Positions 14,458 through 34,622 of a DNA stretch of 64,000 nt are shown piece after piece; position 1 is the stretch's first letter; the number at the start of each line of letters is the position of its first letter. The notes beneath the pieces were generated by a model. It searched no databases. It worked only from the letters and a program-made list of their open reading frames with translations, and was not told where the DNA came from. The position numbers and the translations under genes were made by a program. The DNA comes from Bryoerythrophyllum caledonicum (taxonomy: Eukaryota > Streptophyta > Bryopsida > Pottiales > Pottiaceae), in NCBI GenBank assembly GCA_963971425.1, contig OZ020523.1:13636867-13700866 (forward strand), read 5' to 3'.

Positions 14458-14474
14458 TGGTGCTTCCACTGAGA
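14458..14474 (+). other. Primer binding site of unit 2
   Basis: Identical to the site of unit 1, again two bases inside the internal region. Confidence 0.6.
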
Positions 14475-14489
14475 GAGTTTTGAGGCGAC

Positions 14490-16942
14490 TTGCGTGGTTT
14501 TGCTATGGGAGACGCTGATGGGACCGCTGGTGTTGGAGGAAGAGGCACCGGTGGAGTTCAAATGCCTATGGAGGACATTTTAGGGGCGTTGGCCCTATTC
14601 ATGGAACAACATAGAGCAAATCAAGGTGGGCAAGGTGCCACTAAGGCTCTTAAAGCTGTTGTTTCCAAGATTGGAAGGTTCGATGGCAAGAACATCTCTA
14701 AATTCTTGCGAACCTACGTGTGTGAGATGGAAGTGCATCAGGTTGATGACAATCAAATGATGCACATCTTTGGTATGGCGGTTGTACCTGACATTCGCGA
14801 CCGGGTGCAAGAGATCCGCGAGATGGTCATCTCATGGCCAAACTTTGCTGAGCGGCTCCGAGATGAATACTTTGATGAAGACTCTGAGAGAATGACAAAG
14901 AGGTCATTTCTTGAATGGGTGGAGCAACGGCCTGGGAATTCGATGGGTCCCAACGAGCTGTTGAGAAGAAGTTCAGTCAACTACCCATGGCAGAGAGGCG
15001 CCTTTTGGATTCTAGGAAGGCAGAACTTTTTCTCCAAGCAACAGATGCTGCACTTGAAGACAAGCTGCTTCTACTCCTTGGAGATCGTACGACAGAAGGG
15101 GGCTTTACCAATGATTGGAGGAGGGTTGAAGAAACGGTGATTCTCTTGGCCAAACAACGGCGTGTGAGGTCAAGAGGCGTTGAAGTGGAGCCTATTCAGA
15201 CTCCGAAGTCTCTTAAGGTGTCTTTTGCCCCAACACCTTCGACAACTTCGGGACCTACTTTGAAAACCACTAAGACCACCGAAGGAAATGCCCTCGAAGA
15301 ACTTATTAAGGGTTTTCGAGAGCTAAGGGTGGAATTTACTGAGTTGAAGAAGGCTAGAGGAGCTTCTTCTTCCCAACCATCCGATGGTGCGAGAAAATAT
15401 TCAAGGAGGTGTGTTTGGTGTGATGAGGAGACTGAGCACAATCTCAGAGGCTGTGAATCGTATGAAGAGGCACTCAAGAATGTTCATGTCTATTACAAAG
15501 ATGGGAAGATTCACGATGCCTCAACAAACTCTCCATTGGGGACCAATTTTGGAAGAGGTGGAATGAGGAAGCTCATGGAAGAGAAGATGGCAAGATCCAG
15601 CTACGTACAAGTGCACGAAGCTGATACTTACCACGTTCAAGTCGAGCACCATTCAGATAAAGCTTTATCTGTTCAAACTCAAATATTAATGAAGAGAGGA
15701 GCTCAAGCCATCAGAAATGCAACTGGATGGGAAGATCCAGTTGATGCAAATAGCATCAGGGCATTTATGTATGAAGAAAAGGACAATGATGAGCTCCGCG
15801 AGGCCTCCGTTGAAGAAAAACGTGTAAGACTTGATGCTGACGATGGTGTTGAGCCAGAAGCAAAGAGAAGATCTCCAGTGCAGAATGAGCCTGCAAAGGA
15901 GATGAGAAAGAGGGTTCCTACACGTTCAAAGCCGACGGACCCTAGTACTGTGCGCCCTAGTGATGCACCGTTACCAAAGGAATGGTGGGAGAAGAATAAA
16001 GAGAAAGAGAATAATGGGCCAAGCAGACATTCCAATGATAGCAAAAGAGGAGAAGAAAAAGGAGACTCTACCAAGGTGAAGGGAAAAATGCCTGCTTACA
16101 AGCTCCAGTCAGACATTGAGACCTCTATTGATCTGAAAGGGGTATTGGAGGAAAGGATCTTGGATGCCAAGATCGAATTTACATTGAGAGAAGCACTTGG
16201 CATAGCCAAGAAGGATTTCCATGAGTTAATCATTGACATCATCAAGAGGAAGAGGCAGATGACAGCTGAGGCTGTGATGGTCAGAGCTTTAGATACTCAC
16301 ATGACCGAAGATGAAGAGACAGAGATTGGTGAGGTATTTGCTATGATGAGTGAGCCAATAGGTCAAGAAGAAGAAGTTTCCAAGGAGGAAGCACGAACCT
16401 TTCAATTCTCTTATGATCTTCCCAACATGAAAGAAAATGAAGAGAAGATTGAGTTCGATCTACCATTTTGGGCTAGGGCCACTACTGAAACGAAGATAAA
16501 GCTCGGAGGGATCGATGACCACGTTTTAGCCCTTGTTGATCATGGTTCAGAGATTAACATAATATCTCGAAATGTCTATGAGAAGGGCAAATGGCCAATC
16601 GACACGGATCATGGTTGGGTCATGAGAGCAGCTAATAGTGGACGGACTCGGTTGCATGGTGCTTGCCCTGCAGTACTCACGAAGATTGGAGATGTAGAGG
16701 TTGAACAAAATTTCTTTGTTCAAAATGTTAGCGCCTATCCGATAATTTTGGGCCAACCATTTATCACTGCTTCACGAATGGAGACCAAGGTGTTGGATGA
16801 CGGGTCTCATTATGCCCGTATCCGAAGTGTTGATGGAAAGAGGTCAGTGCAGTTCTTAACGGTGAGACCTGACAATGAGAGGCATCGACTTCAACTCAGA
16901 GAAATCCCTCTACCAACTTCTTCGAACTTCTCGGATTTCTAG
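14490..16942 (+). CDS. Ty3/gypsy gag and protease region, unit 2
   Basis: Protein-identical to the gag and protease region of unit 1, displaced by exactly 8,004 bases. The identity across the whole region shows that the second unit is a recent duplicate rather than an independent insertion. Confidence 0.8.
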
Positions 16943-16956
16943 AGGGCACACGTGGG

Positions 16957-19900
16957 ATGTGGGGATCCACGGGTGCTAAGGGAACTAAGACTGGTAGATT
17001 CCCCAATGTACATACTAGTGTTAAGTGTGGATTTTTAAGTGTGACAAAGTGTGGCTTTGAAAGATTTACGGGTGTCAAAGACTTGGACCCTGTATGTAGA
17101 AAGCTTGTGAAAAAGATGGAGAAAAATCTTAAAAAGATGAATGTTGTAGAGGTAGATGAAAGCATTTCTGGTATTTACGAAGAAAATGGAATGCCAGATG
17201 ATATCTTACAGACTTTGCAAGATCTAGAGGCAGATAAGGATGAAGAGAAGATTACACATTGCATTGTCAATGTCCATACAAGTTCAATGTATCATGAGAT
17301 TTCAACAGCAATAACAAAGCTGTGTGACTTCAAAATTGATGGACAGAGACCGGAGGCTGCAGTTTATACAAAATATAAAACTGTGGCCAAGAAAGTGAAG
17401 CCAGTGGCTACTCAGCTACCATCTGATACTGATGATCATATCAAACAAGCTGAGAAAGAGCCAAGTTTGAGAGAAGCAAGAAGGATTGGACACAAGTTTA
17501 CCAAAGAGACGTTGGCAAACTTGAAGATTGGAGGAGATGATTTCTTGACTGAGCCGGAGAAGAAGAAATTTCAGGACATGCTTTCCATGCATGGAAAAGC
17601 CTTTGCTTCTTCGCCAGATGAGATTGGGTGCGTTCAACCAAGTATTGTGGCACCAATGGTTATTTTTACAGTACCACATATACCATGGGATTTGAAGCCA
17701 ATTCCAGTTCCTCGAGCTCTACTACCAAAGCTTGTACAGCTGCTTAAGGAAAAGACACGCATGGGCATACTTGAGCCTTCGATGGCTCCATATTCCAACC
17801 GATGGTTCACAGTGCCAAAGAAATCGGGAGCATTGAGGTTCATTCAAGATATGCAGCCAGCAAATGGAGTGACAATCAGAAACAAAGGCTCAGGGCCTAA
17901 TGTTGATGAAGTAGCTGAAGCATTTGCGGGGCATGCAATTTATTCCATTGGAGATCTATACTCTGGTTATGATCAATTTCAACTCGCTGCTGAGAGCAGA
18001 GATTTAACAACCATGAAGACTCCACTTGGATTAGTGCGCATGTGTACATTGCCTCAAGGTGCTACCAACTCGGTGGCACATATGCAGAGCGCCATGAATC
18101 AAATCCTAAGAGATTTTGTGCCTGAGAAAACCATACCATTCGTGGATGACATTCCCATGAAGGGGTGCGAGGATAAAGAAAGAGACTTAACCATTCAAGA
18201 TGATGGTTGCAGAGCCTTTGTGAGTAATCATATTGAAGATGTGGCCAAAATCTTGAGCAAATTGGAGGAGGTCAATTTGACTCTTTCCATTGAGAAGTCC
18301 AAGTTTGGGGTTGATGAGATTTTGGTGGTTGGACACTTGTGTGGTTCTTATGGAAGAAAGCCTAATCCTGAGAAGGTGGATGCTATTGGGAGAATGAAGG
18401 CCTGTAGCAATGTCACTGAAGTAAGGAGGTTTTTAGGAGCCTGTGTCTTCTACCAAATTTGGATCCCTCATTTTGCTCATATATCAGAACCTCTTTACAA
18501 GCTATTGCGCAAGAGGAACAAATTTGTTTGGCAATGTGAGCAAGACAAAGCTATGATAGAGCTGAAGAGAATCCTGGAGTCACCATCGGTTCTTAAACAA
18601 GTGAGTTATACTTGTGGAAGACCGGTGATTGTAACTGTTGATACAAGTCCAATAGCTATTGGATGGGCTGTTGGACAAGATGATGAAGAAGGGAAAAGAT
18701 TTGCTATCCGATTTGGAGCAAGGATCTTGACAGAGCGACAAAGGGCTTATCCACAAGTAAAAAGAGAACTCTGGGGTGCCCTTACAGCTTTAAAAGCAGA
18801 CAGGAACTACTTGATTGGTGCGGAGGTAGTTTTAGAAACTGACTGCTTGCCTTTGCTGGGGATGATAGCAAATTGTTCTTCACCAGACATTGCAATGCTA
18901 CGCTGGATAGCCTACATCAAGTCTTTGAATCCTGTTCTAGTTCACATTGAAGGCAAAAAGAATTCAGTTGCCGATATGTTGTCTAGAGCAAGGTATTTCA
19001 AAGAAGAGGAGATGATGGCTCACGAACATGGTGAAGAATTGTTACACGGAGGCTATGTGATGAACATAGATGGTGAAAGCACGTCCACTAGAGTATTGCC
19101 TTTCAAGGATGAGCTGTACGAAGGAAAGCTGAGAGATATTGGGCTCTACTTGAGCACAATGAAACGGCAAAGAAGTTGGATGGATAAGACATTCAAAGAC
19201 ATCAGACATCAGTCTTATGGATATCTGCTGAAAGATGGATTTCTATGGAAGAGGGCAAAAAGAGCTGGTGATGTGCCTTTAAGAGTGGTGGGAGACTCTG
19301 GAACCAAGACCCAAGTCCTACAAGAGCTTCATGATACACTCTGGGCCGGTCACAGAGGAGTGTGGGCCACTTATACAAAAATCAAGGAGAGATATTGGTG
19401 GAAGGGGCTGTACAAAGATGTTGAGGAGTTTGTAGCTTCTTGTGTAGTATGCCAATTACAATCCAAGGTGCGACACAGAGACGAATTGCATCCAACTTAT
19501 CCCATTGCAATCCATTTTCAATGGATGATCGATTTGGTTGCTATGCCAAGTGCAATGTGGGGAATGAAGTACCTTGTTTTGGCCCGAGAAGAACTCTCAA
19601 ACTTTGTTGAGGGAAGAGCATTGAGGACCAAGGCCACGGAGAATGTATGCCAATTTATACTTGAAGATATTTTTAGTCGGTATGGGAGTATTGGCCGAAT
19701 GAGAGCTGACAGAGGAGAGTTGAATGCTACGGAAGCCAAAGAATTTTTCAAGCGATATGGTGTGCAGTTGAAACTGACAACTGCTTACAATCCTGAGGCA
19801 AACGGCAAGATCGAGAGGGGACATCCTCCAATCATTCATGCTCTAGTCAAAGCTTGCAAAGGGAAGCCTGGTTTATGGCCAAAATTGCTACCGTTTGCAC

Positions 19901-20514
19901 TATGGGCTGATAGAACAACACATAGTACGGTTACCGGTTACATGCCTGTAGAACTTATGTATGGGCAGAAACCTATCATGCCGGTGGAGAACGATATTCC
20001 CACATGGGTGTTTCTTTCATGGGAAGATGGCATCAGTAGGGAAAGACTGTTGGAACTTCGTATTCAGCAGTTGGCAAGATTGCCTGAGGACCTTGAGATA
20101 GCCTTGGAGAAGATGAAAACTGCTAGATTGGGCAACAAAGAACGCTTTGACAAAACACATCGATTGAGGAGAAAACAGATCAGAGAGGGTGATTGGGTCC
20201 TTGTATTTGATAGTACATTGGAGCATCAACACAGCACGGTACGGAAATTTGCAAAGAGATGGATTGGACCCTATGTAGTGATTAAAGTGCACCTCAATGG
20301 CACTTATTCACTTCGAGAGTTAGATGGAGTTCCTCTTCGTGTACCAGTGGCTGGGAAACGCATCAAAGTCTTTCGAAGGAGTGACAGGTTTCATCTTGAA
20401 GACTTAGAGGACATTCTCGATCCACAACAATTTGATGACACTGATCAAGCTGAAGATGAAGATGAAGATTTAGAAGATGCAGTTCGGGACAACCAAGATA
20501 GTGAGGATGACTAA
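16957..20514 (+). CDS. Ty3/gypsy pol region, unit 2
   Basis: Protein-identical to the pol region of unit 1: reverse transcriptase, RNase H, zinc-binding and catalytic integrase domains, then the GPY/F-type module. Confidence 0.9.
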   Translation: MWGSTGAKGTKTGRFPNVHTSVKCGFLSVTKCGFERFTGVKDLDPVCRKLVKKMEKNLKKMNVVEVDESISGIYEENGMPDDILQTLQDLEADKDEEKITHCIVNVHTSSMYHEISTAITKLCDFKIDGQRPEAAVYTKYKTVAKKVKPVATQLPSDTDDHIKQAEKEPSLREARRIGHKFTKETLANLKIGGDDFLTEPEKKKFQDMLSMHGKAFASSPDEIGCVQPSIVAPMVIFTVPHIPWDLKPIPVPRALLPKLVQLLKEKTRMGILEPSMAPYSNRWFTVPKKSGALRFIQDMQPANGVTIRNKGSGPNVDEVAEAFAGHAIYSIGDLYSGYDQFQLAAESRDLTTMKTPLGLVRMCTLPQGATNSVAHMQSAMNQILRDFVPEKTIPFVDDIPMKGCEDKERDLTIQDDGCRAFVSNHIEDVAKILSKLEEVNLTLSIEKSKFGVDEILVVGHLCGSYGRKPNPEKVDAIGRMKACSNVTEVRRFLGACVFYQIWIPHFAHISEPLYKLLRKRNKFVWQCEQDKAMIELKRILESPSVLKQVSYTCGRPVIVTVDTSPIAIGWAVGQDDEEGKRFAIRFGARILTERQRAYPQVKRELWGALTALKADRNYLIGAEVVLETDCLPLLGMIANCSSPDIAMLRWIAYIKSLNPVLVHIEGKKNSVADMLSRARYFKEEEMMAHEHGEELLHGGYVMNIDGESTSTRVLPFKDELYEGKLRDIGLYLSTMKRQRSWMDKTFKDIRHQSYGYLLKDGFLWKRAKRAGDVPLRVVGDSGTKTQVLQELHDTLWAGHRGVWATYTKIKERYWWKGLYKDVEEFVASCVVCQLQSKVRHRDELHPTYPIAIHFQWMIDLVAMPSAMWGMKYLVLAREELSNFVEGRALRTKATENVCQFILEDIFSRYGSIGRMRADRGELNATEAKEFFKRYGVQLKLTTAYNPEANGKIERGHPPIIHALVKACKGKPGLWPKLLPFALWADRTTHSTVTGYMPVELMYGQKPIMPVENDIPTWVFLSWEDGISRERLLELRIQQLARLPEDLEIALEKMKTARLGNKERFDKTHRLRRKQIREGDWVLVFDSTLEHQHSTVRKFAKRWIGPYVVIKVHLNGTYSLRELDGVPLRVPVAGKRIKVFRRSDRFHLEDLEDILDPQQFDDTDQAEDEDEDLEDAVRDNQDSEDD

Positions 20515-20545
20515 GCTTGGCACATACCAGAGGATGTGCAGGTTT

Positions 20546-20557
20546 AGAGAGGGTGAA
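20546..20557 (+). other. Polypurine tract of unit 2
   Basis: Same purine tract directly in front of LTR 3. Confidence 0.55.
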
Positions 20558-22459
20558 TGTCCTGATGGAAATTCTTCCATCATGTACATACAAGTATTAG
20601 TCTTTATATGTGTGGATTTTAATAAGTAAGGAGTTAGGATAAAAAGGTTTGGTCGTGGTGAGAACCACGGTTTGAGGATTTGGGCAAGTGTTAGCATGTA
20701 GGTGCTGCACCGCTCTTGTCACTGCTTAGGGGGGTAGGTAGCGGGTTGACTGGTATTTTTCCTGCCTCACTAGCGAGCCAAGCCGTGGGCCGCTCAACCA
20801 CTCGACGGGCTCGATCGGGTTCGAACCCGGACTGGCGGCGGCCACTGACCACGACATTTCCAGCCAACCAAGTCCACGACTTGGCGATCAGGTTGTGCGA
20901 ATCAACACCTTTATACGTCCGTTCCATCAGCTACCTTACGATAAGTTTTTATTTATTTATTTTTTAGTTATTTTTTTTATTTTACTTATCTTGTTGGTTG
21001 GAAGGTCTAAATTTTTAGTCTTCCAATAAATAAAAGACTAGGGGATTTATGTGGTTGAAAGTGGAAAGGATAAGAAAGTAGCAAAGTACCTTGTGGGGTA
21101 CTTTGGATAGGGTGACATGGGCTGGAGTGCCGACGTCCACTTGAGGTGAAAAAGTTGGGAAAGATATTCCTTAGTGAGTGAGTGTGTGTGTGTGTGCGGG
21201 TGAGAGAGCAAGGGTTTGGAGCAGAACTTTGACTGTGTGTAACTCGTTGAGCTTGAATGCTATGGAATTGAAAATTTGTGATCTTGTTCCTTGTTTCAAG
21301 AGCTTTCCATACTCGTTTTAAAATTTGAATTCGGAGTTGTAGAGAAAAAGTTATTGAGGTTTTAATTCTGTGAAAACCCGAGGCCATCCATTGAGGGGCA
21401 GAGGTTTCGAGGAGCCACAACTTTTTCTGTAGTTCTCAATTTGATTTGAGATTTTGAGGGACTGTGCATCTCTATCTTAGCTTTATAGAAAGATATTACA
21501 ATTGAGATTTGGAGTTGTGAGCAAGAAGTTATAGAGATTTGAATGAATAGGGGTAGGCAGAACTTTGATTGTCCATAACTTTTGGACAGTAGTTTGGAAT
21601 TGTTTGAGAATTGGAAGGTGCGTAAACCATGGTCATAGCTCTTCAAAAAGTTAATACAATTGAGATTTGGAGTTTTGAAGAAGAAGTTATGAGCGATTGA
21701 ATATCTGGAGGGGCAGAACTTTGAACTCGTATATCTTTCGGACAGTAGTTTAGATTGACTTGAAATTTGGAGGAGTGTTAGTTGTCTAAATTAGCTTTCC
21801 AGAGAGCTATTACACTTAGTATTTGAAGTTTTGAGTCATCGGTGTCACTTGTTTGAAGGTTACAGCCTTGGTGAAACTTTTCCATTGTGTTTTTGAACAC
21901 TTCTTTTGAGTTTCTTAGTGTTTTTGAACACTTGAAGACTTTGGAGTTGAAGGATGGAAGAATTGAAGACTTGAGGATTGAAGAGAAGAGAAGATGGAGA
22001 CAAGTGTGTTGTGGCTTGTGGTCCGATTTCTTTTTTTGTGATTCCAAGCCAGTTTTGGAGGCTAGTTGTATTTCAATTCTGTTCTTGTAAACTTTGTTGC
22101 GGCGAAGTGGGGTTAATTGCCCACACGGTCGTGTTTATGTCGTTCCCACCGGTGAGGCACGTTTGCTGGTCACCGTGGGTTTGAATTTTAGGAGCCAATC
22201 TTTCGGACGGTTTCAGCTTGTGGTCTGGCCGTCCCGTTTTACCCGTCCGAGGCCGTGGTTTCTTATCACCCACCTTTACCCTTAACCCTTTAGAGCCACC
22301 ACAGGATAGGCCAACGGGGAGGAGTTTGAAGACTGAAGACTGAAGACTGAAGACTGAAGACCGAAGACCGCAAGATTTGACAGAACTCCGTAGCAGACTA
22401 TACGAAGTCGCAGCCAGATACCTCGCGTATTCTCAAAGCGCTCCCCTCTCTACACGACA
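20558..22459 (+). repeat. LTR 3 (3' LTR)
   Basis: Same 1,902-bp sequence as LTR 1 as far as I could compare, ending at 22459 and followed by the ACGT duplication and then host exon sequence. Confidence 0.95.
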
Positions 22460-22463
22460 ACGT
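22460..22463. other. Right target-site duplication ACGT of the LTR array
   Basis: Pairs with 4546-4549. In the host gene these four bases occur once, and counting them once keeps the reading frame open across the insertion point. Confidence 0.8.
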
Positions 22464-23439
22464 TCTCTGGCAAATTGAGCATGTGCTTAATCGGGCTGTC
22501 GTCAATGAGAAGCGTATTTGCCGGAGTATACTCACGACCCAACCTATTGAAGAGATGGTTCGATAAGGTCTTCAAGAAGATGTCCTTCTGAGTGCCAGAT
22601 TCCTTCATGTAGAATGTTCTGGTACCGACTCTACGCTCGGGAACCCTATCGCAACTCTCCTAACCAAAGATCCTGAGAGGGTACGAAGAACTATGCTGAA
22701 AAAGATAATTACATATCTGACGCGTTGTAGATTCCATCATCGAACTCCAGATCGTGATGGTGGCAATCTTAGACAACTTCGTAAGGAATTCAGCACAACC
22801 AGGGCACATTCGAACTAGTTTAGGGCCTACTTCGGCTGGCAGCGAAGCCAAGTGAATGGACGGAATAGAATTCCTGGATCCTGTGGCCTGCCACGACGGC
22901 TCACACGTGCATAGAATCCCATTGAGGTCCAGCACAATGTTCAACCACCTCCCCTCGATATCTGATTGGACTCTAGGTATTTCTTCTAGATTATTGGCAT
23001 CACTTATTGATGCCTCGCCAACCTGGTTCAGAAACGCCAGGAGAACGACCAATATTACTACAGATTCATTAACAACGACGAATCAACAATACGTAGATCG
23101 AAAGAGATAAATGGGGGGGAGGAGTGATGGGGGAATGAGTGGAGTTCGAAAAGAGTTAGAAGAATACCTCGAGAACTTCATCGTCCTGCAGCATTTTGTC
23201 TCGGGCACCCATCGATTCCAACGAACCCTGCATGCTGTCAAGGGGCCCGGAGTGCCCGACATCCATTTGGGGGCACGGTTCTGGGACAAGAAGAGGTGGC
23301 TCCAAGACAGCAGAATCATGATTGATCTCGTCTACGAGCACGGCTGAAACTTGGACGACCTCTTCTATGACTGGGACTGTAGTTTGGACGACCTCTTCTA
23401 TGACTGGTTGAGCAATCGCGTCATCACCTAAACTTAGAT
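22460..23439 (-). pseudogene. FCP1-like HAD phosphatase module, last exons of the ParB-methylase-HAD gene
   Basis: Two minus-strand exons. The first, 23439-23168, begins after TTTTTCCAG and ends at GAG|GTATTC; it encodes an acidic linker with a near-tandem repeat (PVIEEVVQ twice). The second, 23022-22460, begins after AACCAG and holds an FCP1/NIF-type HAD domain: motif I as VLDLNGILC, motif II region TIWSSMM, and motif IV LLIDDSP. The D-x-N form of motif I is shared by plant FCP1-like proteins and departs from the usual D-x-D-x-T/V, so activity is uncertain. The expected role is phosphoprotein phosphatase. One in-frame TAG interrupts the domain (after RIFG, before ESCDR), and the LTR array removes the tail, so the gene is broken twice. 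Confidence 0.8.
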
Positions 23440-23523
23440 CTGGAAAAATTCAACAACTTCACCCTATCAGCGGATGGGCACAGAGGACACGGATACAAGT
23501 CACAGCGGTTAGATGTCAAGCAG

Positions 23524-23544
23524 TTTAGCTCGAGTCGAGCTGAA
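23524..23544. repeat. AGCTCGA/TCGAGCT palindrome, degraded copy in an intron
   Basis: Arms TTTAGCTCGA and TCGAGCTGAA around one G, in the intron between the proline-rich exon and the HAD linker exon. One arm has drifted by one base. Confidence 0.7.
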
Positions 23545-23649
23545 GTGCTCGCCGTGCACCTTAATATTAACAAAAAATATACTGGAGTACAAAATTGGAC
23601 ATTTACAAAATGTTCTGCCTCTATACACTCGCAACTACGTTACACTAAC

Positions 23650-25678
23650 CTGACGATGACCTGGGGACATCTGCGATAGATTCGTCCCGATCGGGCGACT
23701 TCGGAGAGGAAGAGGGGTGGGCCGACGCGGAAGGGAGAACAGGAAGCAATTGAGCCCCACTGGAGACGGGGGAGGTACCCGACGGATATGGTAGCTGCAA
23801 ATCGCAAGACGGACTCACAGACCCGCCGTCCGGTGATGCGGGAGGCTCGGGGATTGCAGCAATAATTATGGGCGGTGTTGTGGCATCTCCAGGCTCGGGG
23901 AAGATCTCCGAGTTGACGTGATACGCAGAAATATCAAAATCGGCCCGATCCAACGTCAAGGCGACCTCAAAGGCGTCGTCGAGATCCTGCTCATCGGTGT
24001 CGTGAGAAATGCAGAATGCCTCCAGGTCCAACATCTGCACACCAATGGTTTGAACAAGATTCAATTTAGGTCGAGTCGAGCTAAACTCACTACAAACAAT
24101 TGCTGGTACGAAAACTCAGCTATTATAACTTCAAATCATACGAACGAAGTAAATGACATCCATAAAATCGTACAAGTAAAAGCCGACACTTTAGCTCGAG
24201 TCGAGCTAAAGTGTCACCAAAAGAGCATAGGCAAGATCTCTTTGAAACTAAGCAGTCAAAAAGGGAATAAACAGTTTAGCTCGAGTCGAGCTAAACTGCA
24301 GGGATGCTTACCACACTCGCTGTCAGTAATTTCGTCCCGCCAAACAGCTGGACTACACAATCCCCCCTCTTGCAGAACAACTCTAGGACCTTGATGAAGA
24401 ACTCCATCCTCAGCTCGTTCAAATTCATGGAGTACGCCAACTCGTTGTACTTGCGCAGCTTCGTGTACAACACATGCTCTGGAGCTCCGTAGATCTTCTT
24501 TACGGCCGGGATCACCGTAAGCTCTTTCTTAAAGAGAAAGAGGAGCCGAACCGGGTCTAGAGCGTTGTTGGTCTTCGGCGCGAATCCTCCGAGGCGCTCG
24601 TTCTCGGAGGGAAGATACTTCGACTGCAACACATCGTATGCATGGCACAAGGACGGGCCCTCAGCAAACGCTGTCAATTGAAGGTGTGACTGCTCGTTGC
24701 CGCAAATGAAGAGCCAGGTTGGAAGATCGGTGAGGGGAGGCTGCCCTTTCGATGCGAACATTGTCATGAACTCGTCGAAGAAGGGCCTCTCCAACGACGA
24801 CGATGACGTCCCAGAGAACCCAGGGATGTTCCGGAAGTCGATGAAGCCGAGCTTCACATTGCAGCCCAGGTTGCGCCACGAATCCGAAGGCCACGTCCCG
24901 AGCGAATTCGTTGCCGCCTTGTAAGAACGGAAGTGCAGGGCTCCCACTGGTGAAACGAACCGCGACCGCACATCGATGAAGACTCTGAAGAACTCCTTCG
25001 CGTACAGAGAGAGATCTTCACATTTGCAGTTGCAAAACTGCGTCTGCCTCGAGTTGGCGTAGTACGAATCCGGTGGACCCCAATCCAAGAGGGCACGCTT
25101 GGAGGCCTTGCTGATGTTGTAGTTCTTCTTGAACGTCCGCCAGTTTGAACGTCTGTATGCTCCAGTGCTGTTGAAGAAGGCCAGCTCCGGCCTGATCAGT
25201 TGAAGCTAAATCCGAGCGACCTCCTTCCTCTTCCTCCGATCCACCCAGTCCCGGGCTGTATAGCAATCCTCCAGCGCAGAATTTGGCAGCTTGATGACCA
25301 CCTTAGGGAGGGCAGTTTCCGAGATGGCCCTGATCGATTGAAAATGTGCTTGCACATTTTCGCGTGATCGGCTTCGATCATGTTGCCGAGAAACTTGAAG
25401 AACTCGCGCGTCAGAACCCCATCCTTCTCAGGAACCCAAGACTTCGCGTCCTTGAACTTTGCCAAGGGCATCGATGTTGAATCGACGTTGATGAGGTCGC
25501 CATGCGCCGTAGAAGAGATGACATCGGACCAGAGCTCGAAGGTCTCATCTGTCGCGGTGATGATCTTCACCTCGTTCGTAATTGAAAGCTCCTTCGCCTT
25601 CCCGGCTTTCTTGAGTGCCGCCTGGCTATTCGCAACGTCGATCATTGCGAAGCGCTCACGAACCGCGTTTAGAAATGG
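23650..25678 (-). pseudogene. N4/N6 DNA-methyltransferase-like module with proline-rich tail
   Basis: Exons 25678-24312 and 24034-23650, joined in phase 0 by GTG|GTAAGC and TGTGCAG|ATG. The fold pattern follows beta-class DNA methylases: a motif-IV-like strand LGFIDFRNIPG (about 24812-24850), then FDEFMTMF...PTWLFICGNEQSH, then DPVRLLFLFKK, then VLELFCKRGDCVVQLFGGTKLLTASV in two parts, aligning with the usual GD-VLDPF-GSGT-AA motif I, followed across the intron by FCISHDTDEQDLDDAFEVAL where family members have an acidic residue and a helix. The catalytic DPPY is replaced by DFRN and FAGSGTT by FGGTKLL, so enzyme activity is doubtful. An in-frame TAG (ARI-stop-LQLIRPE near 25205) and one frame change near 25330 mark it as broken. 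A Pro/Ser-rich linker ends the second exon. Confidence 0.7.
24065..24298. repeat. Three AGCTCGA/TCGAGCT palindromes in one intron
   Basis: Copies at 24065-24085 (degraded), 24185-24215 (perfect 31-bp inverted repeat, outer arms GACAC/GTGTC) and 24272-24298 (perfect 27 bp, outer arms CAG/CTG). All lie within the single intron 24035-24311 of the methylase-like module, which is little more than a palindrome cluster. Confidence 0.85.
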
Positions 25679-25754
25679 CTGCGCAGAACATAAAAGGGTC
25701 GTTTGAGTATACAATAAAGCAGGAATATTAACATGTTCAGTAGGGTCCAAATAC

Positions 25755-25880
25755 TGCAAGTTAGCTCGAGTCGAGCTAACTTGCAACCCAAGAGCAGGCA
25801 ATGATGATTTCTTATCTATACATATGACTGTACAGATACAAAGCGAATTTGCACTTTAGCTCGAGTCAAGCTAAACTGCA
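25755..25880. repeat. Two palindromes in the ParB/methylase intron
   Basis: Copy 25755-25785 is a perfect 31-bp inverted repeat whose arms TGCAAGTTAGCTCGA/TCGAGCTAACTTGCA differ from the family norm (GTTAGC in place of TTTAGC) on both sides at once. Copy 25853-25880 has lost symmetry. Both are inside the intron 25679-25903. Confidence 0.85.
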
Positions 25881-25903
25881 TGACCTTGGTTATGATATAT
25901 TAC

Positions 25904-27350
25904 CTCAAACTTCTTGTCATTTACAATCTCCGCTACCGTTCTCCGACCTGATTTGTGAGACCCGCGAACGCCTGTGGCAGAGTGCTTCTGCATTGGTCTC
26001 CCAGCTTGGATCCACAAAGCACGGGAGCCGAGGATATTTGTTGCCCACGTCGACTTGAACTGGACCAAATGATTCACGCGATTATAATACGCGGAAATCT
26101 TCCTCAACTTCTCCGGATCTTGCGTCCAGACAATGTAACATTGCCATGTTCGGAAGTGCCTTCTCATCACCTCCGGAACGTTGCCGTTAATCATCTCCTA
26201 TGAGGCAGCAACGCTGTGCTGGCCGTTGATGATGTAGAAGTCGCAGTCGCTGAGCTCCTCCACAGTCGTCGGCATAGTGTCGAGCTTCGGCATGACGCAG
26301 AGAGTCTGCTTCTACGTCTTGTCTGGCATTTGGAGGTAGTAATGCTTCAACTCCTCCATGCCCCGAGGCTCGAACGCACGGATCGTCCACTCCGGCGGTG
26401 CATTATGCAACCTCATCACGTCAAGCTCGATCTTCATCTCTCTGTCGCCTTTGAAAAAGCAGCTCTGACACTCCGTCCAGAATTTCTGGTAAATCTGTTG
26501 GACGTTGTTGTAGTCGATTGTCTCTCCGTATCCGAGCGCCTTGGGGAGCTCCGAGAGTGCAGAGGCCATCGAATTGGCTAGCTCCTCCTCCGATACGAGC
26601 TTCGACTTCTTTCTTGAAGAGGTCTCCGGCTTCTTGGCAGCTGAGCGCTTCTTGACGGGGGAAGCAGACAGTGTGTTGCGCAGAGTGCTTCGACTTGTTC
26701 TCACACCTGGAGTTCTAACCGGTACCGACGCTTGACTCATGTCCTGGCTACCGGTCACGGCCCCCGAAACCGTTGAAAGTTCTATCGGGCGTCTTGCCGC
26801 GATATTCTTCGCCTTATCTAGAGCGGCAAAGGTACTCATTCTAGATAGAATGACGCGCAGTTTATTAGCTATAGCCTTTGCTTTCAGCGGCTCTCCGCTA
26901 CTAGTCTCCCGTTTCTTAAGGGAGATCTCATGCTCGACCTGAGTCACTATTTCCTCAAATTTGGAAGACCTAAGAGAATCGACCAAATCCAAGATACAGA
27001 AGGGAGATGAACTATTGTTTACTATAATAGTAAAGAAATACGGATCTAAGGACTCAGTGGTCGTCTCACACGACAACTTAACGTGATCGTTATCTTCATG
27101 GACTACATCAGTAACTTTGGTCTTGAAGTCGATGTGTTGGGGATCGACGATAGCACCAACGAAGGTCTGACCAAACACTAAATGATCCGTATAGGTCGCC
27201 CATAGAAGCGTCCACTTCAGTGTCATCGATGGGTCCTTCAGCTCCCAGCAATCTAAGTGGTTGTTGTCGTCTCCATCGTCATCGTCAACGTCGACAGGCT
27301 TTGGCTGGAAGAAGTGCTACAGCTGCGACACCATCTTGTCCCTCTCAGAT
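25904..27350 (-). pseudogene. ParB-like N-terminal module of the ParB-methylase-HAD gene
   Basis: The exon opens after GTTTGTGCAG at 27350, has an ATG at 27334-27332 and ends at TTTGAG|GTAATA (25904). Order: acidic start, a basic Ser/Lys-rich nuclear-type segment (SPVKKRSAAKKP), then FWTECQSCFFKGDREMKIEL, then the ParB/sulfiredoxin-like signature DFYIINGQHSVAAS near residue 367, followed by KLRKISAYYNRVN. The GQH motif is the nucleotide/DNA-site signature of ParB-type domains; known prokaryotic relatives are often fused to DNA methylases on mobile elements. Three TAG codons fall in frame (after MVSQL, after MPDKT and after SVAAS), each where Gln would fit. The remaining frame is open and well composed, so the decay is recent. 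Confidence 0.7.
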
Positions 27351-27524
27351 CTGCACAAACACGAAACAGAGCAAAGATATTAGATTGCTCTAATGATCAT
27401 CCGATTAGGACGGCGAGGTCACACATTAGCTAGACTCGAGCTAAAGTGTACCGTTTATCAAGTATGTGAGTAATACTCTGCAACAAAATTTAGACATTTA
27501 GAACGTTCTCGTAGATGCTTACAA
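27351..27524. other. Upstream spacer of the ParB-methylase-HAD gene
   Basis: Holds an imperfect palindrome copy (about 27421-27449) and no ORF. The sequence next to 27350 is a splice acceptor, so at least one more 5' exon or a leader exon probably lies to the right, but I cannot place it. Confidence 0.4.
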
Positions 27525-27688
27525 TCAACTCACGTCTACTTTCCGTTCACCTCTCAGAAATGTGGGAGAGCTTCAGTTCCCCTTAAATCACTCACGAACC
27601 TCACTGTTAGAGGTTCTCAAGTGGTTGAAGCGGGACTGAAGCTCTTGCACAATTTATGAGAGGTGAACGGAAAGTAGACGTGAGTTGA
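27525..27688. ncRNA. Long hairpin 1, candidate small-RNA precursor or fold-back element
   Basis: The outer 32 bases (27525-27556) are perfectly complementary to 27657-27688. Inside, AGAGCTTCAGT pairs with ACTGAAGCTCT with a few bulges, so about 70-80 bases fold per arm around a short loop. A related hairpin lies about 320 bases to the right. Size, bulged stem and duplication fit a plant-type microRNA precursor; a miniature fold-back transposon is the main alternative. No transcription evidence is available. Confidence 0.55.
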
Positions 27689-27746
27689 GTTAGGAGACTG
27701 CAATTACACCAATGTATCAATGTTGTATTCAAGTTTTAGCTTCATC

Positions 27747-27767
27747 TTTAGCTCGACTCGAGCTAAA
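27747..27767. repeat. Palindrome copy between the two hairpins
   Basis: Perfect core: arms TTTAGCTCGA/TCGAGCTAAA around C. Outer flanks do not pair. Confidence 0.8.
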
Positions 27768-27848
27768 CTGCTCATGCATGGAATGCATAGCTGAACAGTT
27801 CTGACACTTGCAATATTCATTCAAACGACTTTCCTATATATTTCTATT

Positions 27849-28011
27849 CAAATCATGGCTACTTCTCGTTTAACTCTCAGAACTGCGAAAGAGCTTCAGT
27901 TCCCGCTTCAATCACTCACGAACATCACTCTTTGAGGTTCTCAAGTGGTGGAAGTGAGACTGAAGCTCTTGCACACATGTGAAAATATAACGAGAAGTGG
28001 ACATGAGTTGG
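27849..28011. ncRNA. Long hairpin 2, paralogue of hairpin 1
   Basis: Outer arms CATGGCTACTTCTCGTT and AACGAGAAGTGGACATG pair with few mismatches; the inner stem has GAGCTTCAGTTCCCGCTTCA against GAAGTGAGACTGAAGCTC. The inner 3' arm ACTGAAGCTCTTGCACA is shared exactly with hairpin 1 while the outer stems have diverged on both sides, which is the pattern of a conserved processed segment. Confidence 0.55.
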
Positions 28012-28099
28012 GTCATCGGTATCATTGGATTACTATACATTTGGACTGTTTAAAGTCCGAATGTTGTTGTGTTTGAGTTGTTCTTTATGTTTATTGTCT

Positions 28100-28640
28100 C
28101 ACACTTTAGCTCGATTCGAGGTAAAGTGTGTAGGCTTTACAGAGAGGCCATGTTTTATTTCAAACCCACTGTTTAAGAGTTTATATTAAGATTTTATTTC
28201 GAGGAGTCGCTCTTAGCGCAACCGAGGACGTACTCAGTCGTACATTTTAGCTCGAGTCGAGCTATTATGTGACCTCGATAGTGTATTATAGTCTACACTT
28301 TAGCTCGAGTCGAGCTAAAGTGGGACTTTTCTGTGCACATTTGGCCCACTTACGCTCTAATTGCGCCAAAGTGCGCTTTCGTGTTTGCTTCATTGATCAC
28401 ACTTTACCTCGAGTCGAGTTAAAGTGTGGCTTAATGTGCACAGAAAATGTCCACTTTAGCTCGACTCGAGCTAAAGTGTGGCCAAAGGTGCACAGAAAAG
28501 GCCCACTTTAGCTCGACTCGAGCTAAAGTGTGGATATTAGTGCACAGTGGAGGCACACTTTAGCTCGAGTCGAGCTAAAGTGTGGACAATAGTGCAATAT
28601 GGATTTCCCACATTAGCTCGACTCGAGCTAAACTGTGTTC
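28100..28640. repeat. Dense cluster of AGCTCGA/TCGAGCT palindromes
   Basis: Nine copies in 540 bp: about 28100-28130, 28245-28270, 28296-28322 (perfect), 28398-28428 (two arm changes), 28452-28478 (perfect), 28504-28530 (perfect), 28554-28584 (perfect 31 bp, CACAC/GTGTG outer arms), and 28609-28638. The centre is G in some and C in others. Spacers share the string GTGCACAGAAAA/TGTGCACAG, so the later copies sit in roughly 50-bp tandem units. No coding. Confidence 0.9.
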
Positions 28641-28689
28641 AATGAATAGCGTATTTATCGCAGATTGTATAGATTCGTCATTCGTTATA

Positions 28690-29235
28690 TGATACTGAAG
28701 GCGTAGGGTTTAGGGCTCCTGGGTGAGAGTATGGATTTTACCTTTCAGCCATTGCTTACGAACCTTAATCCCAGACAAATTCTGCCGGAACTAGACTTCC
28801 TGCAACAACAATTACAAACCCACACACAAAATCAATCAAAGTAGCACATGGAAACCAAAACATTGAAATCTTTCACATTGAAATCAACACTTTGAAATGG
28901 GCACATTGAAATTCAGCACTTTGAAATAAACACATTGAATTCAACACATTGAAACAATGACATTGAAACTAGCACATTCAAACTAGCAGAAAGTAGCACA
29001 TTTACACCAGCACAAACCAGCACATTTAAACTAGCATAGACCACCACAAATATCCACAAACCACCACAAAACCACCACATTCAAATCATCACATTCAAAC
29101 CAGCACATTGAAACCAATACACACTCTCATCTACGTGGTGACACATACATCAAAAGCAATGCTACACATATATTATGTTTCAACACATCATATCAAAAGC
29201 AAAACTACACAAATATCAAAAGAAATGAAAGACTG
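28690..29235. repeat. Low-complexity CACATTGAAA-type repeats
   Basis: From about 28850 to 29130 the sequence is made of 12-15-base variants of AACACATTGAAA and CCAGCACA. A telomere-box-like GTAGGGTTTAGGG lies near 28701. No gene. Confidence 0.6.
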
Positions 29236-29335
29236 AATGAGTGCATTTACCTTTAAAACTGAGAAATCCGACTGGAAAAGCTGGAAGTCTTGTTACTTGT
29301 TCACGTCAATCCTCCACGCACGGCCGTTTCAGACT

Positions 29336-29545
29336 CTACGTGCTCACAGAAACTCACAGAAACTCACACACACTCACAGAAATTCACACACACTCACAGA
29401 AATTCACACACTCACAGAAACTCACACACTCACACAAACTCACACAAACTCACACACGCTCACAGAAACTCATACACTCGCAGAAACTCACACAAACTCA
29501 CACAAACTCTCACAAATTCACACAAACTCTCACAAATCTCACGCA
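29336..29545. repeat. ACTCACAGAA/ACACTCACAC minisatellite
   Basis: About twenty 9-11-base units of the type AACTCACAGA, AACTCACACA. All forward frames are open because the repeat lacks stops, giving spurious His/Thr/Ser-rich ORFs. Confidence 0.85.
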
Positions 29546-30557
29546 AACAGCCCTAAACTCTGGCGCTACAGTGTACACGAAGTCACACAACAACAAATCG
29601 CACGTCCTACAAACCCTATGCGCAGGAAACCCTAGACTCCAGTAAATTGCACACGGAAGCCTATACGCAGCGCTACAGTGTACACAAACGTAACAATCCC
29701 TGTAGATAACGAAACTAACACAAACCAACGCATCAACTCACAAAACTCACAAAACATCAACGCCTGGAAGTACACGGAAAACCTGGACTGCAACGAAAAG
29801 AATAGAGAAATGGCTCGCGCCACAACTTTGTGGGGAAGTTTCTGGGCCATCTAAAGCCGTGAGGGTCGAAACCCTGTGGCCGTTTGGTGGTCCCGAGATA
29901 CTCTCGGGATACCCTTTGTGATATTGGGGTGTAACTCCCGGGTATTATGCCGGATGCTCCACAAATCATTCACCTTCGTTACTGATACCCGGACTTTTAA
30001 GAAGCCAATTTAATTTTACCAGAATAAGTTCAAGATATTACGCGCCTGTAGTATTTGTGTACTCGTAAATTTCCAACACAATTTTTCGGAGCCATTAACA
30101 CTACAATTTTGCATATTTTGGGGCAACGAACAGGTAGCAAAAGAAAAGTGATTATTTCCAATTTCATTCGTATGATCTCAATTAAAACTTCTAAATTGAC
30201 ATTTTCTCAATAATACACAAACTTAAATTGGACGAAAGTGAACGTTTATAGTATTTAGTGTTTAGTTTTCTTTCATGATTTTAGTGGATCAGCTGGCTTT
30301 CACTTCACTCGATTTCAATTTTTGCATTACACAAGGAGTAAATTCATTACCTTCGATATATATAAGTTCCTCCTACACCAATTATTAGGTGAAGCACACT
30401 TAAGAGAGTTTTAAAGCTACGATTTTAAGATTCTATTACTTTGAATTCAAGTTTTGCTTTTTTATGAGTTTGATATTATTTTCTATGACAATCGAACAGA
30501 CAATAAGTATGTTAAGACCACATCTTGCAATTGTATAATTATAAAATAAATGCCGGT
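29546..30557. other. Intergenic, no gene seen
   Basis: GC-mixed at first, AT-rich after 30000. A small inverted repeat TCCCGAGA/TCTCGGGA lies near 29884-29905. Nothing else stands out. Confidence 0.4.
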
Positions 30558-30657
30558 GCACACTTTAGCTCTAATGGAGCTAAAGTGTGCGTACTTGCTT
30601 TATAGTTCCCTACATTTACTGATGGTGTACACTTTAGCTCTAATAGAGCTAAATTGT
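30558..30657. repeat. Variant palindromes with AGCTC/GAGCT arms, 5-base centre
   Basis: Copy 30558-30590 has 14-base perfect arms (GCACACTTTAGCTC/GAGCTAAAGTGTGC) around TAATG. Copy 30629-30657 is similar with one arm change. The spacer contains TTTACTGATGGTGTACAC, seen again near 32300 and 38560. Confidence 0.8.
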
Positions 30658-32296
30658 GAATTTTTTCTGTACTTTTCACTTCATTTTGCTTTTACTGTAA
30701 CGGTACAAATACAGTTGTTAGAGCATCTCCACCCCTGACGGAGAATTTTCCACGCCAGCGGGAAGGTGCCCAAGTTTGAGATGAAGTGAGGGGGGTCACC
30801 CTTTTCCCCCCGCACCGTCCCCCAATTTGGCCACTGTGAGGGAACGCCAGCGCCCTGCACTAACGCCATAGTAGGCTAATTTTTTTGGAGGTTTTTATTG
30901 ATTTCTTTTAATTCCCTCGTGTAATTTCATGCTTGAACACATGCTCTCGCGGACTTTTGGTGTCCCCTGTACTTTTTGTAAATTTACTATTTAGAGGAAC
31001 CGGCGCCGCCACTCCAGTGGGCCGGGACACCGGCCTAGGCCTCACGGAGTCGGCTTTACCGTGTTTATTCTTGCATTCCGGTCACTCGGCCCCGGTGGAG
31101 ATTATCTTTTTCTAGTACACTATTTGTCAACAAGTTGGCAACTAGTTTTAGCCACCATTGTCCTGAATATTATCCCTCATTCGTTCACCTACTACAGTTC
31201 ATTTCGTAATAGCCCTCTATCAAAACTCTTCCCTAGCACACAATTTTGATACTTGATAAATAGTATAAGCTCAAAGTCTTCAGCCTACCGGTTGCCATGC
31301 ATTTATTCTTCGTCTCATCTTCAACCTCAATTTCTTATCCTCTTATCCACAACTATTCTCATTCCCATCTCTTGCATTTTCTTTACATTATTTAATATTA
31401 TCTAATGAATATTTAATGTGTAATCAAATATTTAGCCAATAACTAATGACTTTGTAATGATTTTTTAGAGGATAATTCATGTATATTGGTATATCTGTAA
31501 CTTTTATGCACAATTAAAGAATATTGGAATTTTATTTATTGAATGTTGGAAGTTTTAAAAGTATATTTATGATAGTTTATTAATATTTATATATTTAATG
31601 ATTATTTAAAGAGTATTTAAAGAGTATTTAATGCACTGTTAATGAATAGTTAATGAATAGTGCATAAATTTCTAATGTAAAATTAATGTGTATTTGAATA
31701 TTTAATGAGTATTTAATTAATATTTACTGAATATGTAATGCACATTGAATGCGTATTATGTGATGGATATCTAATGAGTATTTTACTTGTATTCCTATAT
31801 TTATTGTATGTTTAAGTTTTTTCCTTTTCCAATATTCCTTTTTTTTCTCATTTTCGTTTCCAGAAGAATGTTCTTATATTTCCAGTCTTCTACTTGTAGT
31901 TTCATTTTCCCTCCATATTTTACATTCTACTTTGTCCAATTTTTTATATTTTCCTTTTGCTCCATACCTACGTCCGCTTATTCCCAAGCTCTTTCTTGCA
32001 AATTCTTCCTTTTCTACATGCACTCAACCCTTCTTTACTATGATGCTCAAGATGTAATCAAATCATGATTAAGGTTCCCTACAGTAATTGTCCACAAGTA
32101 AAAAACTTTATGTTCCACTATTTACTAGGATTGACATTTAGTGTAGTAGTTGGCATTTAGTGTAATATAGTTTTGTCACTACACTTATTGTAAATTTTAC
32201 AATTACTGTGTGCATTCCTATTTAGTTTCCACTTCTCTAGAAGCCATCTTCTGTATACTGGAGCTACATAGTGCATTTTTGCTTTCTAATCCACTC
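30658..32296. other. AT-rich intergenic region
   Basis: 30720-31130 is GC-richer; 31380-31780 is made of AT-rich ATTTAATG/TATTTAA-type imperfect repeats. The ORF near 31787-32068 is Phe/Tyr-rich and probably non-coding. Nothing else seen. Confidence 0.4.
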
Positions 32297-32470
32297 CATT
32301 TAGTGATGGTGCACAATTTAGCTCTAGTAGAGCTAATCTGTGCATATTATCTTTTTAGTTCACTGCACCTAGTGATGAGGCACACGTTAGCACGAGTGGA
32401 GCTAAAGTGTGTGCACACACTCCTTTTAGTTCACTGCATGTAGTGATGGTGCACACCTCTGCTAAAAACT
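32297..32470. repeat. Variant palindrome array, about 68-bp period
   Basis: Three units of TAGTGATGGTGCACA followed by an AGCTC/GAGCT palindrome: about 32311-32343, 32379-32411, and a truncated one at 32446-32468. The spacer TTTTAGTTCACTGCA is repeated. Confidence 0.75.
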
Positions 32471-33867
32471 GATATGATGTATGTGCAATGTGTATTTCCA
32501 CTTCTACAAACAATCATTTTGAACTCCGTACTTCTCTTTATGGATAAGTATTTCACAAGTGGAATAGTAATCTTTTGAATTTTAAAAGGATTTTCATAAT
32601 ATGTGGATCTAAATCTCCAATAGTAATATTAAAAAACAAAAAAATATGACGATCCCCTAGTTTTTAGTGGATATGAAGTCTAAGTATTCTTGGTACCCTA
32701 AATCAATAATATGTGACAATGTGAAAAATAGATGAATGAATATGTAATCTTATTTTTCACTGGAAAAATAACATATTTTTTCACAATATCATTTGTTCTA
32801 ATATTACTTCTATGTATTGAAAATACCACATTCCATACTGTGTCATAGCAAAAGGTTTTTTAGGTTGCTCGATGTGCCGGCAATCGAGAAGTTTCTCTTT
32901 TGGCTCGCATAACTTTTAATGAAGACGTTCATTGAGAAAATAAATTACTTATAAATATGCCTCTCATTGAGAAAATATATTACTTATAAATATGCCTCAT
33001 TACTTTTATCATCCTTCTACGAAATTTTGAGAATTTAAAATATAATTTGCGACCACTAGAACGTGCTCAAAAACTAATTATTCCATTTTTGCATGTATAA
33101 ATAAATTCAAAATTACTTACATTACGAACATTAAATTATGCCTGATGCACTAAGTGATACACTTTGTATTAGTTATATTTTATATTTTGATTATCCTTTT
33201 TTTGTCATGAGGAGGTCTCTCCGTTTCTTATTTAAATCTTTTAATATTGTTCCACTCTCTATGTTTTACAAATGACAAAGTCTTCAATTTCACGTCAAAA
33301 CATGAAATAAATTGTATATGGTCAAGAAATCTTCCATCTTTTATGTCATGCTTAGATTGCCACACCCTAAAGTCATGAAAATACAATGTGAACTCAAGAA
33401 TAAGATATTTTAATTGAAATATTAGTTTGCGCACATTTCAAGTCTTTGAGTACCTCTAAGTGGAAAGTAACCAATTTCAATTGCAAATCCAGACCATGGG
33501 GACATTGGGATTCTTGCCAAAGAATGCACATTCTAAATTGATGACAAAATAGTTACATGACGCACATTTTTAAAACCCCAAAGAAATGATGTCCAAAGCA
33601 TGTTTGAATACATTTGTTTTGGCTAAAAAAACACGTGCACATATAATATGTTTTTTTGTTTTTTTATATGCTACTTGTCAGTTAAGGTCTTTGATTTCAA
33701 CATAATTGATAAGTCCTATTTGGATTGTAATAAAAACTATTTCTAATCATCTCAATATCTTCTCTACATTTCCCTATACCTTAGTTGAATTGTCAATATC
33801 ATGAATCTTCAAAGTATTATTATATTGAAATGAATTGACATCAGAAGATATCACCTAAACCAAGGAT
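32471..33867. other. AT-rich intergenic region
   Basis: Low-complexity AT-rich sequence with one short duplication (CTCATTGAGAAAATA..ATTACTTATAAATATGCCTC, copies near 32930 and 32965). No gene seen. Confidence 0.4.
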
Positions 33868-34010
33868 CCTAGACCGTGAAACCTAAACCTGAACCTAAAT
33901 TCCAAACCCTGAACCCGAAACTCCAAACCCTAAACCCGAAACTCCAAACCCTAAACCCTATCCCTAAACCCTAAACCTAAACCTATCCAAAACCCTGAGC
34001 GTTACCCTAA
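33868..34010. repeat. Interstitial telomere-like tract (CCCTAAA type)
   Basis: Degenerate runs of CCTAAACC, CCCTAAACCCTA and AACCCTGAACCC variants over about 140 bp. The CCCTAAA unit is the Arabidopsis-type telomere repeat used across most of the green plant lineage. Its drift and its position between ordinary sequences mark it as interstitial. Confidence 0.75.
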
Positions 34011-34622
34011 AACCGTGTATATAACTCGCATGTGCGAGTATATTCGAGGTATTGACCTTTCTTTATTTTAGTCAACCGGGAAATAGTTGATTCAGTTTCC
34101 CGCTAAGATTTCGAATTTGCACTTTTTAGGGGCTGTGAAAAAGTCCCCCCCCACCTGCCAATTCTGAAGTTTCCTCCCGCCAATTCTGAAACGTTCGAGT
34201 GTCCGTGAGTGACCTCGCTGATACTCGAAAACTTTCTTCATTTGTTTCCTTCTCGCTTTGGTTGTTGTGCAAGGTTGTTGTGGAGAGGCTTGGAGGTAGT
34301 ACAACTGTCGGAGCTTGAAGAGGGCAACACCTATAGGTTGCGCACGGTTGAGCAGGTGAGGCAACAACGTACCGGTTGTCTTCTTCATAAGGTACACAAT
34401 GTATACTTCTTGCATTCTCCGTGCACAGTCTCTAGCAATTATGATGTGACAGTGTGTAGGGTTATTGCGCTGGTTCCAGCTGCTACTGTGATTTTGAAGC
34501 ATCAGTGAGAGTTTCTTGACGACTAACGGAAAGATTTGGGTTGTAGTATACAAAGAGTCAGATTCATGGGCGGAAGAGTTTTCCCATACGAATCCCGACA
34601 AAGGCGCCGAGAATCACGGAAG
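34011..34622. other. Spacer with overlapping ORFs, no confident gene
   Basis: A 169-codon minus frame and a 99-codon plus frame overlap at 34092-34601, but neither has a recognisable domain or convincing start; I do not call either. Confidence 0.3.

Follow-up and report, generated by a model that had tools for sequence, protein, structure and literature searches.

A high-copy, Sola-like DNA transposon of a moss carries a selected accessory protein and a selected, dispersed palindrome

The window analyzed here, a stretch of 64,000 nucleotides from the moss Bryoerythrophyllum caledonicum (contig OZ020523.1, G000:C11:13636867-13700866), contains a giant DNA transposon that carries both a multidomain protein and a palindrome under selection. 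The protein is encoded by an accessory gene that lies opposite a transposase-like gene, and the copy in the window is a decayed representative of the accessory gene of a high-copy transposon with terminal inverted repeats (TIRs). Genome-wide searches covered the 437-Mb genome, and the element as a whole was studied by comparing 40 kb around five other copies (c1, c2a, c3, c6 and c7) with the window. The accessory gene is composed of the following parts.

25904..27334, minus strand: exon 1, whose 3' part holds a ParB-like (ING-QH) region; three in-frame TAGs
24312..25678, minus strand: exon 2, with a methylase-like region, a frameshift near 25330 and a TAG near 25206
23650..24034, minus strand: exon 3, linker, 570 bp absent relative to five copies
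23168..23439, minus strand: exon 4
22460..23022, minus strand: exon 5, encoding the initial part of the NIF/HAD domain and containing one TAG
4317..4545, minus strand: remainder of the NIF/HAD exon, past a nested retrotransposon; the protein is continuous in other copies
3190..4035, minus strand: putative further exons (two conserved open frames)

A preliminary description of this stretch had proposed five minus-strand exons with matching splice phases, and indeed GT...AG is found at all four introns, in the window copy as well as in the five others. The end that it had assigned to the gene at 22460 is actually the edge of the retrotransposon array (22459), and the HAD exon continues in the other copies. 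Decay of the window copy is evident throughout. Besides the lesions of exon 2, exon 1 has TAGs at codons 6, 341 and 379 and the HAD exon has one near 22660, which brings the in-frame TAGs of the gene to five, and the 570 bp missing from exon 3 at 23882/23884 are present in all five other copies fetched. The open frames at 3190..4035 encode 132 + 115 aa in c1, c6 and c7; in c2a and c3 the lengths are 132 + 80 or 79 aa.

The transposon that contains this gene has the following components.

2907..39171: DNA transposon of about 18.4 kb, not counting the nested long terminal repeat (LTR) array, with a sharp alignment stop at 39171 and/or 2907
2907..2935, plus strand: TIR, AACACCATATTCGTTATAATGGGAGATTT, adjoining the accessory gene at its 3' end
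39143..39171, minus strand: TIR, AACACCATATTCGTTATATTGGGAGATTT on the minus strand, at the transposase end
2903..2906: 4-bp target-site duplication, TACT on the minus strand
39172..39175: 4-bp target-site duplication, repeat of the TACT at 2903..2906
35215..38187, plus strand: transposase-like gene (DUF7869), first ATG at 35215 and stop at 38187, frame open in the window copy

The similarity of the copies to the window spans 39171 to 2907 and is interrupted solely by insertions and gaps. Both ends are visible in four of the other copies; in c7 only the 2907 end can be seen, the opposite end being rearranged. The ends form inverted repeats, AACACCATATT...GGGAGATTT, of 29 bp with one mismatch, and 4-bp target duplications flank all five copies for which both ends are available, window included (ATAT, TTAA, CAAA and CCCA in the others). 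The TIR pattern of 39143..39171 has 1882 matches in the genome at one mismatch or less and that of 2907..2935, the right-end variant (YR at two places), has 104 exact ones, with no matches for the reversed control in either case. The protein encoded opposite the accessory gene matches PF25273 (DUF7869, E=2.8e-42), and its residues D512, D637, D677 and D679, invariant in 7/7 DUF7869 proteins, would be the catalytic aspartates of a DDD/E transposase. A 4-bp target duplication is used as a criterion for Sola DNA transposons in the available text of PMC10741241. This trait and the TIRs are both present here, and the transposon is Sola-like by its 4-bp target duplication. Sola elements also have a DDD transposase, for which the invariant aspartates above are candidate residues.

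The two genes travel together in many places. In the counts that follow, only a subset of the candidates was scored (exon 2, 130 of 1380; transposase, 44 of 5209; DUF7869, 150 of 3609; NIF, 150 of 1885). The 130 places scored with the exon 2 protein, window included, are 88-100% identical and occur with and without in-frame stops; with exon 2 DNA, 40 matches were scored of 577 candidates, the window's own and 39 others at 96-97%. Exons 1 and 2, the two exons fetched for the copies L037 and L040, are both open in these. Among the 100 right-end TIRs listed (104 in total), 79 have a scored methylase-like exon inward, in the expected orientation and within 30 kb, and 70 of these exons lie 3.4-5.7 kb from the TIR. 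Along the same lines, 39 of the 44 scored transposase copies have a scored, divergently oriented methylase-like exon on the other strand, at most 35 kb away.

NIF domains are also present in high copy number in this genome. Within the first 27 Mb of C1, five of the 13 scored NIF matches are found 1.5-2.3 kb inside a zero-mismatch left-end TIR (0.7% expected at random), and they are all the members there of the frame-length classes 281, 322, 278 and 292. Three more (284, 284 and 245) are located 1.5-2.1 kb inside the right-end TIR variant. Therefore, further subfamilies of the element probably carry a NIF domain. The remaining five C1 matches (classes 652-669, 257 and 209) are near neither TIR variant, and other NIF families are probably unrelated to the transposon. 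Unusually long NIF frames (652-669 aa) appear at C1:4369424, C1:1286955, C1:15682, C2:94645 and C10:26392002; the three on C1 are near neither TIR variant, and these loci probably represent a different multi-copy NIF gene.

To assess selection on the protein we have used the ratio of non-synonymous to synonymous substitution rates (dN/dS) in six exon 2 and five exon 1 copies (L038, L039 and L042 were excluded). When the L037/L040 subfamily is compared with the others, the ratio is 0.11-0.14 for exon 2 and 0.10-0.17 for exon 1, at dS of 0.43-0.62, and between L041 and the window-type copies it is 0.17-0.21 for the methylase-like exon and 0.13-0.15 for the ParB-like one. The youngest pairs give 0.12-0.14 (L037/L040), 0.27-0.44 (L002, L004 and L008) and 0.33 (L015/L023). 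Since dN/dS is low between subfamilies, the first two exons encode a selected protein, and purifying selection maintains it. Exon 3, for which only c6 and c7 of four copies could be used, gives 0.23 in this single pair. For the HAD domain itself selection is not demonstrated: the ratio is 0.35-0.59 in three pairs with few changes (of the four copies, c2a yielded no stretch).

The second conserved component is a palindrome repeated in the non-coding DNA of the element.

23524..38599: 30 dispersed palindromes, core TTTAGCTCGA[G/C]TCGAGCTAAA, at most 3 mismatches
Starts 1-10: 23524, 24065, 24190, 24275, 25760, 25855, 27425, 27747, 28105, 28246
Starts 11-20: 28299, 28403, 28455, 28507, 28559, 28612, 30564, 30633, 32317, 32386
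Starts 21-30: 34628, 34675, 34722, 34769, 34861, 34977, 35024, 35179, 38507, 38579

All 30 palindromes of the window are within the transposon, none in the LTR array, the flanks or the coding exons (the one at 35179 lies ahead of the first transposase ATG), and 20 shuffled windows gave none. The five other copies contain 29, 22, 27, 29 and 15, all 122 of them between the element ends (counting nested insertions as inside and, for c7, everything left of its single known end), with none in 90 kb of their flanks. One 27-bp form has 1114 exact matches in the genome and its reversed control none. The bases adjoining the core pair better within sites than between sites (0 of 2000 shuffles did as well). 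Conservation is clearly above the surroundings: the arms differ at 44 of 2360 positions and the flanks at 714 of 18571 (Fisher p 2e-7; flank differences include gaps in the copy), and between subfamilies the two palindromes of intron 1 differ at 4-6 of 42 bases and the remaining intron at 36-40%. A GANTC centre is found in 24 of the 30. We have discarded two ideas about their origin. The mixed strands of the 27-mers had suggested flipping in situ, but a difference at the central base is seen in no more than 3 of 118 comparisons (a counterpart existed for 28 of the 30 window sites), and independent mobile hairpins are not supported either, with 0 of 152 palindromes outside elements in the window and the five copies.

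Turning to the identity of the domains, the FCP1-like HAD domain of the preliminary description is the part that stands best. The NIF profile (PF03031) is matched by the window protein with E=2.2e-8 and 34.4 bits (cut-off 21.8) and by copy L022 with E=2.1e-18 and 66.9 bits over profile positions 3-155 of 160, so that at the sequence level the domain is secure. Motif I of FCP1/SCP phosphatases is DxDxT/V. The corresponding stretch is DLNGI in the window, c1, c3, c6 and c7 and DHNGI in c2a, which makes catalysis doubtful; the IDDSP motif is retained in the window and four of the five copies and is INDSP in c3.

In the window this phosphatase domain is interrupted by a retrotransposon array.

4550..22459, plus strand: tandem of gypsy-type LTR retrotransposons (LTR-body-LTR-body-LTR), inserted in the HAD exon

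The tandem has three LTRs of 1902 bp, a unit of 8004 bp and two bodies that share the middle LTR and carry reverse transcriptase, RNase H and integrase domains. Its units are 99.98% identical over 9906 bp, and since the outer LTRs are 100% identical the insertion is very recent, barring a duplication introduced by the assembly. ACGT is found on both sides of the array, the HAD domain resumes at 4545, and given the 4-bp duplication the two halves of the exon are by count in one frame.

The layout of the proposed three-domain gene recurs in other copies; its ParB and methylase parts are unconfirmed by profile or structure. DPPY is motif IV of beta-class N6_N4 methylases. Neither DPPY nor the canonical FxGxG is present in any of the eight copies in our motif alignment (c3 and c7 are outside it), which have VQLF-GT, WGPPDSYY and DFRN instead. 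DFRN is invariant in these eight (DFWN in c7), as is WGPPDSYY, a second motif IV candidate (LGPPDSYY in c3). The replacement of DPPY by DFRN had been presented as an alteration of this gene; DPPY is indeed missing, but DFRN is not a change of the window copy. Should the methylase reading hold, the family as sampled has lost the catalytic motifs. No ParB or methylase profile match was obtained, an outcome that the preliminary description had itself named as contradicting it. Because of this the two names are tentative and rest on motif order and on the parallel with Ectocarpus described below.

With these components in hand, we propose that the accessory protein acts as a self-recognition and probably anti-silencing factor that binds the palindromes of its own element, a reading that may just as well prove wrong as right. 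The ParB-like part, which would suit a palindromic site, would bind the palindromes and mark the element's own DNA. The methylase-like part, which in the aligned copies is devoid of the usual catalytic motifs, might be a DNA-binding or methylation-sensing pseudo-enzyme, and the FCP1/SCP-type domain, in which the second catalytic Asp is replaced by Asn, could tether or modify transcription or chromatin factors, as would befit a CTD (C-terminal domain)-phosphatase-like part with an effect on transcription. Taken together, these activities would protect expression of the element's two genes from silencing by the host, much as VANC does for the VANDAL elements of Arabidopsis.

Several results weigh against this proposal. 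The only tie between protein and palindromes is membership of one element, and 21 of the 100 right-end TIRs and 5 of the 44 transposase copies are without a scored partner. Within young copies dN/dS reaches higher values (exon 2, 0.27-0.44; exon 1, 0.33; HAD, 0.35-0.59), so that selection on the HAD domain is not demonstrated. As for the domain names, the accessory proteins have no match to ParB PF02195, for which there is no candidate genome-wide, nor to methylase PF01555 at E<=10 or E<=1, and Pfam, PHROGs, NCBIfam and PDB (with single proteins and with alignments) gave nothing credible for ParB or methylase. An hhalign comparison of the exon 2 profile with 21 YhdJ-like proteins gave E of 0.2-0.46, with the best match at motif I in local modes and elsewhere in global mode. 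Smith-Waterman alignments to L097, a genuine PF01555 exon of the same genome, were not above shuffles, and single-sequence AlphaFold predictions (two models) had mean pLDDT of 32.7 and 35.5, the latter for the ParB-like region, too poor for use.

These negative or uninformative tests favor another explanation, namely that the likeness to ParB and methylase is due to chance and that exons 1-2 encode an unrelated, element-specific protein fused to NIF, still compatible with palindrome binding. A sub-threshold match of exon 1 to HTH_Tnp_Tc3_2 (E of 0.007 in P0001, 0.037 in P0002 and 0.012 in L037) points weakly in the same direction. On the other side, the best local alignments to L097 fall in the motif-I register in 4/4 members tested, below significance, and a ParB and methylase pair is reported for the equivalent Ectocarpus gene in the available part of PMC12477816. 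We regard chance likeness as unlikely, with a substantial possibility of being correct nonetheless. The HTH_Tnp_Tc3_2 match covers residues 208-243 of P0001, from window exon 1, upstream of the ParB-like region. L097 (G000:C9:14278830-14279429) forms with seven other places a separate family of eight copies, 99% identical, whose methylase exon has a canonical motif-I end and is above the PF01555 cut-off.

The palindromes could alternatively be binding sites of the DUF7869 transposase, with the accessory protein as a second transposition protein that assists the synaptic complex. There are palindromes near the transposase end (38507 and 38579), others cluster at 34628-35179, upstream of the transposase gene, and the accessory exon accompanies most transposase copies (the 39 of 44 above). 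However, transposase sites are usually terminal or subterminal, whereas the palindromes extend over the greater part of the 18 kb, also into accessory-gene introns, and are missing from the 2907 end past the HAD exon. The other DUF7869 loci examined (L029-L032, L035, L095 and L096) have no palindromes. Overall, we find this explanation rather improbable.

A more specific form of the anti-silencing proposal is self-marking in the manner of ParB and parS: the protein would load at the roughly 30 palindromes in the element's non-coding DNA and spread over the element, a repurposed RNA polymerase CTD-phosphatase domain would keep the element transcribed and unsilenced, and the pseudo-methylase would read host methylation. 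All these steps together seem doubtful to us.

An active DNA methyltransferase writing N6-methyladenine or N4-methylcytosine on the element is what has been proposed for the Ectocarpus Sola1-1 protein, according to the part of PMC12477816 available, and the gene position and claimed domains agree with those here; the GANTC centres of 24 of the 30 palindromes offer a possible methylation site. Yet DPPY and the canonical FxGxG are missing from the eight aligned copies, and PF01555 is unmatched, though the model finds eight other places in the genome. We consider such an activity quite improbable.

Finally, the three-part layout behind the preliminary description's unique host gene, a captured prokaryotic ParB-methylase module fused to a plant phosphatase, is real, but the gene has many copies (130 places scored) and sits inside a mobile element between TIRs and target duplications, so that a single host gene is rejected, host-gene capture is refuted for the window locus and the idea retains hardly any credibility, although capture could have occurred inside the transposon lineage.

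Some other observations concern the element and its surroundings. DUF7869 proteins are extremely numerous in this genome (the 150 scored of 3609 candidates), and those fetched elsewhere (L029-L036 and L095) are about 20-26% identical to the one in the window. The locus L095/L096 adjoins a repeat of about 1995 bp, and there was no related accessory gene within the 20 kb examined around it, mostly on one side. The literature searched had no mention of DUF7869. Telomere-like repeats of the plant type (AAACCCT), in keeping with the green lineage, are found at 33879-33985, in the non-coding spacer of the transposon. Outside the element, open frames with a GTRHGKGEWDGAGA stretch at 41259-43179 (plus strand) are perhaps another transposase-derived gene, and a Pfam search with them gave no credible match. 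Well-kept tandem repeats with units of 37 bp and 54 bp are found at 61441-61681 and 47617-47877.

To our knowledge, few systems are known in molecular detail for the evasion of silencing by large DNA transposons. In the family described here both candidate parts occur together: a multidomain protein that is conserved, and a long palindrome repeated in non-coding DNA and conserved well above background. The pairing opens a direct test of binding and de-silencing, and to the ParB/methylase accessory genes reported from algal transposons it adds a version with a fused phosphatase.

How does the element compare with known systems? VANDALs are MULE-type elements. VANC21, the accessory protein of the Arabidopsis transposon VANDAL21, causes loss of methylation and binds a motif concentrated in the non-coding regions of its own transposon, introns included (PMC5735166, as far as the available text goes). 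Both systems thus combine a DNA-transposon accessory protein with a motif that recurs in non-coding DNA of the element itself, introns included, while the transposase and the protein domains differ; the VANC21 motif is 9 bp long and arrayed in one orientation, whereas our palindrome has 21-29 bp and its binding is predicted. The NIF/HAD domain shares with NIF/FCP1/SCP phosphatases the profile match and IDDSP and differs from them in motif I. Phage ParB-methyltransferase fusions pair a ParB fold with an N6_N4 methylase (PMC12704722, in the portion available) and resemble the window protein in the proposed domain pairing alone. A virus, phage or plasmid origin found no support, at low search power: tblastn of phage and plasmid collections gave chance-level matches or none, and IMG/VR gave no match in a scan with two short N-terminal peptide patterns per query.

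The closest parallel is the Ectocarpus Sola-1 (Sola1-1) transposon, in which a ParB and methylase gene lies opposite the transposase according to the available text of PMC12477816. The two are alike in being giant DNA transposons with an accessory gene opposite the transposase and with ParB-like and methylase-like regions, a comparison made by description. The NIF/HAD fusion on the C-terminal side, the non-canonical methylase motifs and the roughly 30 palindromes are specific to the element described here, to the extent that the Ectocarpus account was available. The preliminary description knew of no gene with this layout; a ParB and methylase gene is in fact published, as just said, and the titles and abstract beginnings surveyed contain neither the NIF/HAD fusion nor the palindrome system, with relatives possible in Iyer 2011 and Petroll 2025. 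ParB/methylase accessory genes of giant algal transposons are therefore, on the published text available, an already known kind, and the fused phosphatase and the palindromes appear to be new.

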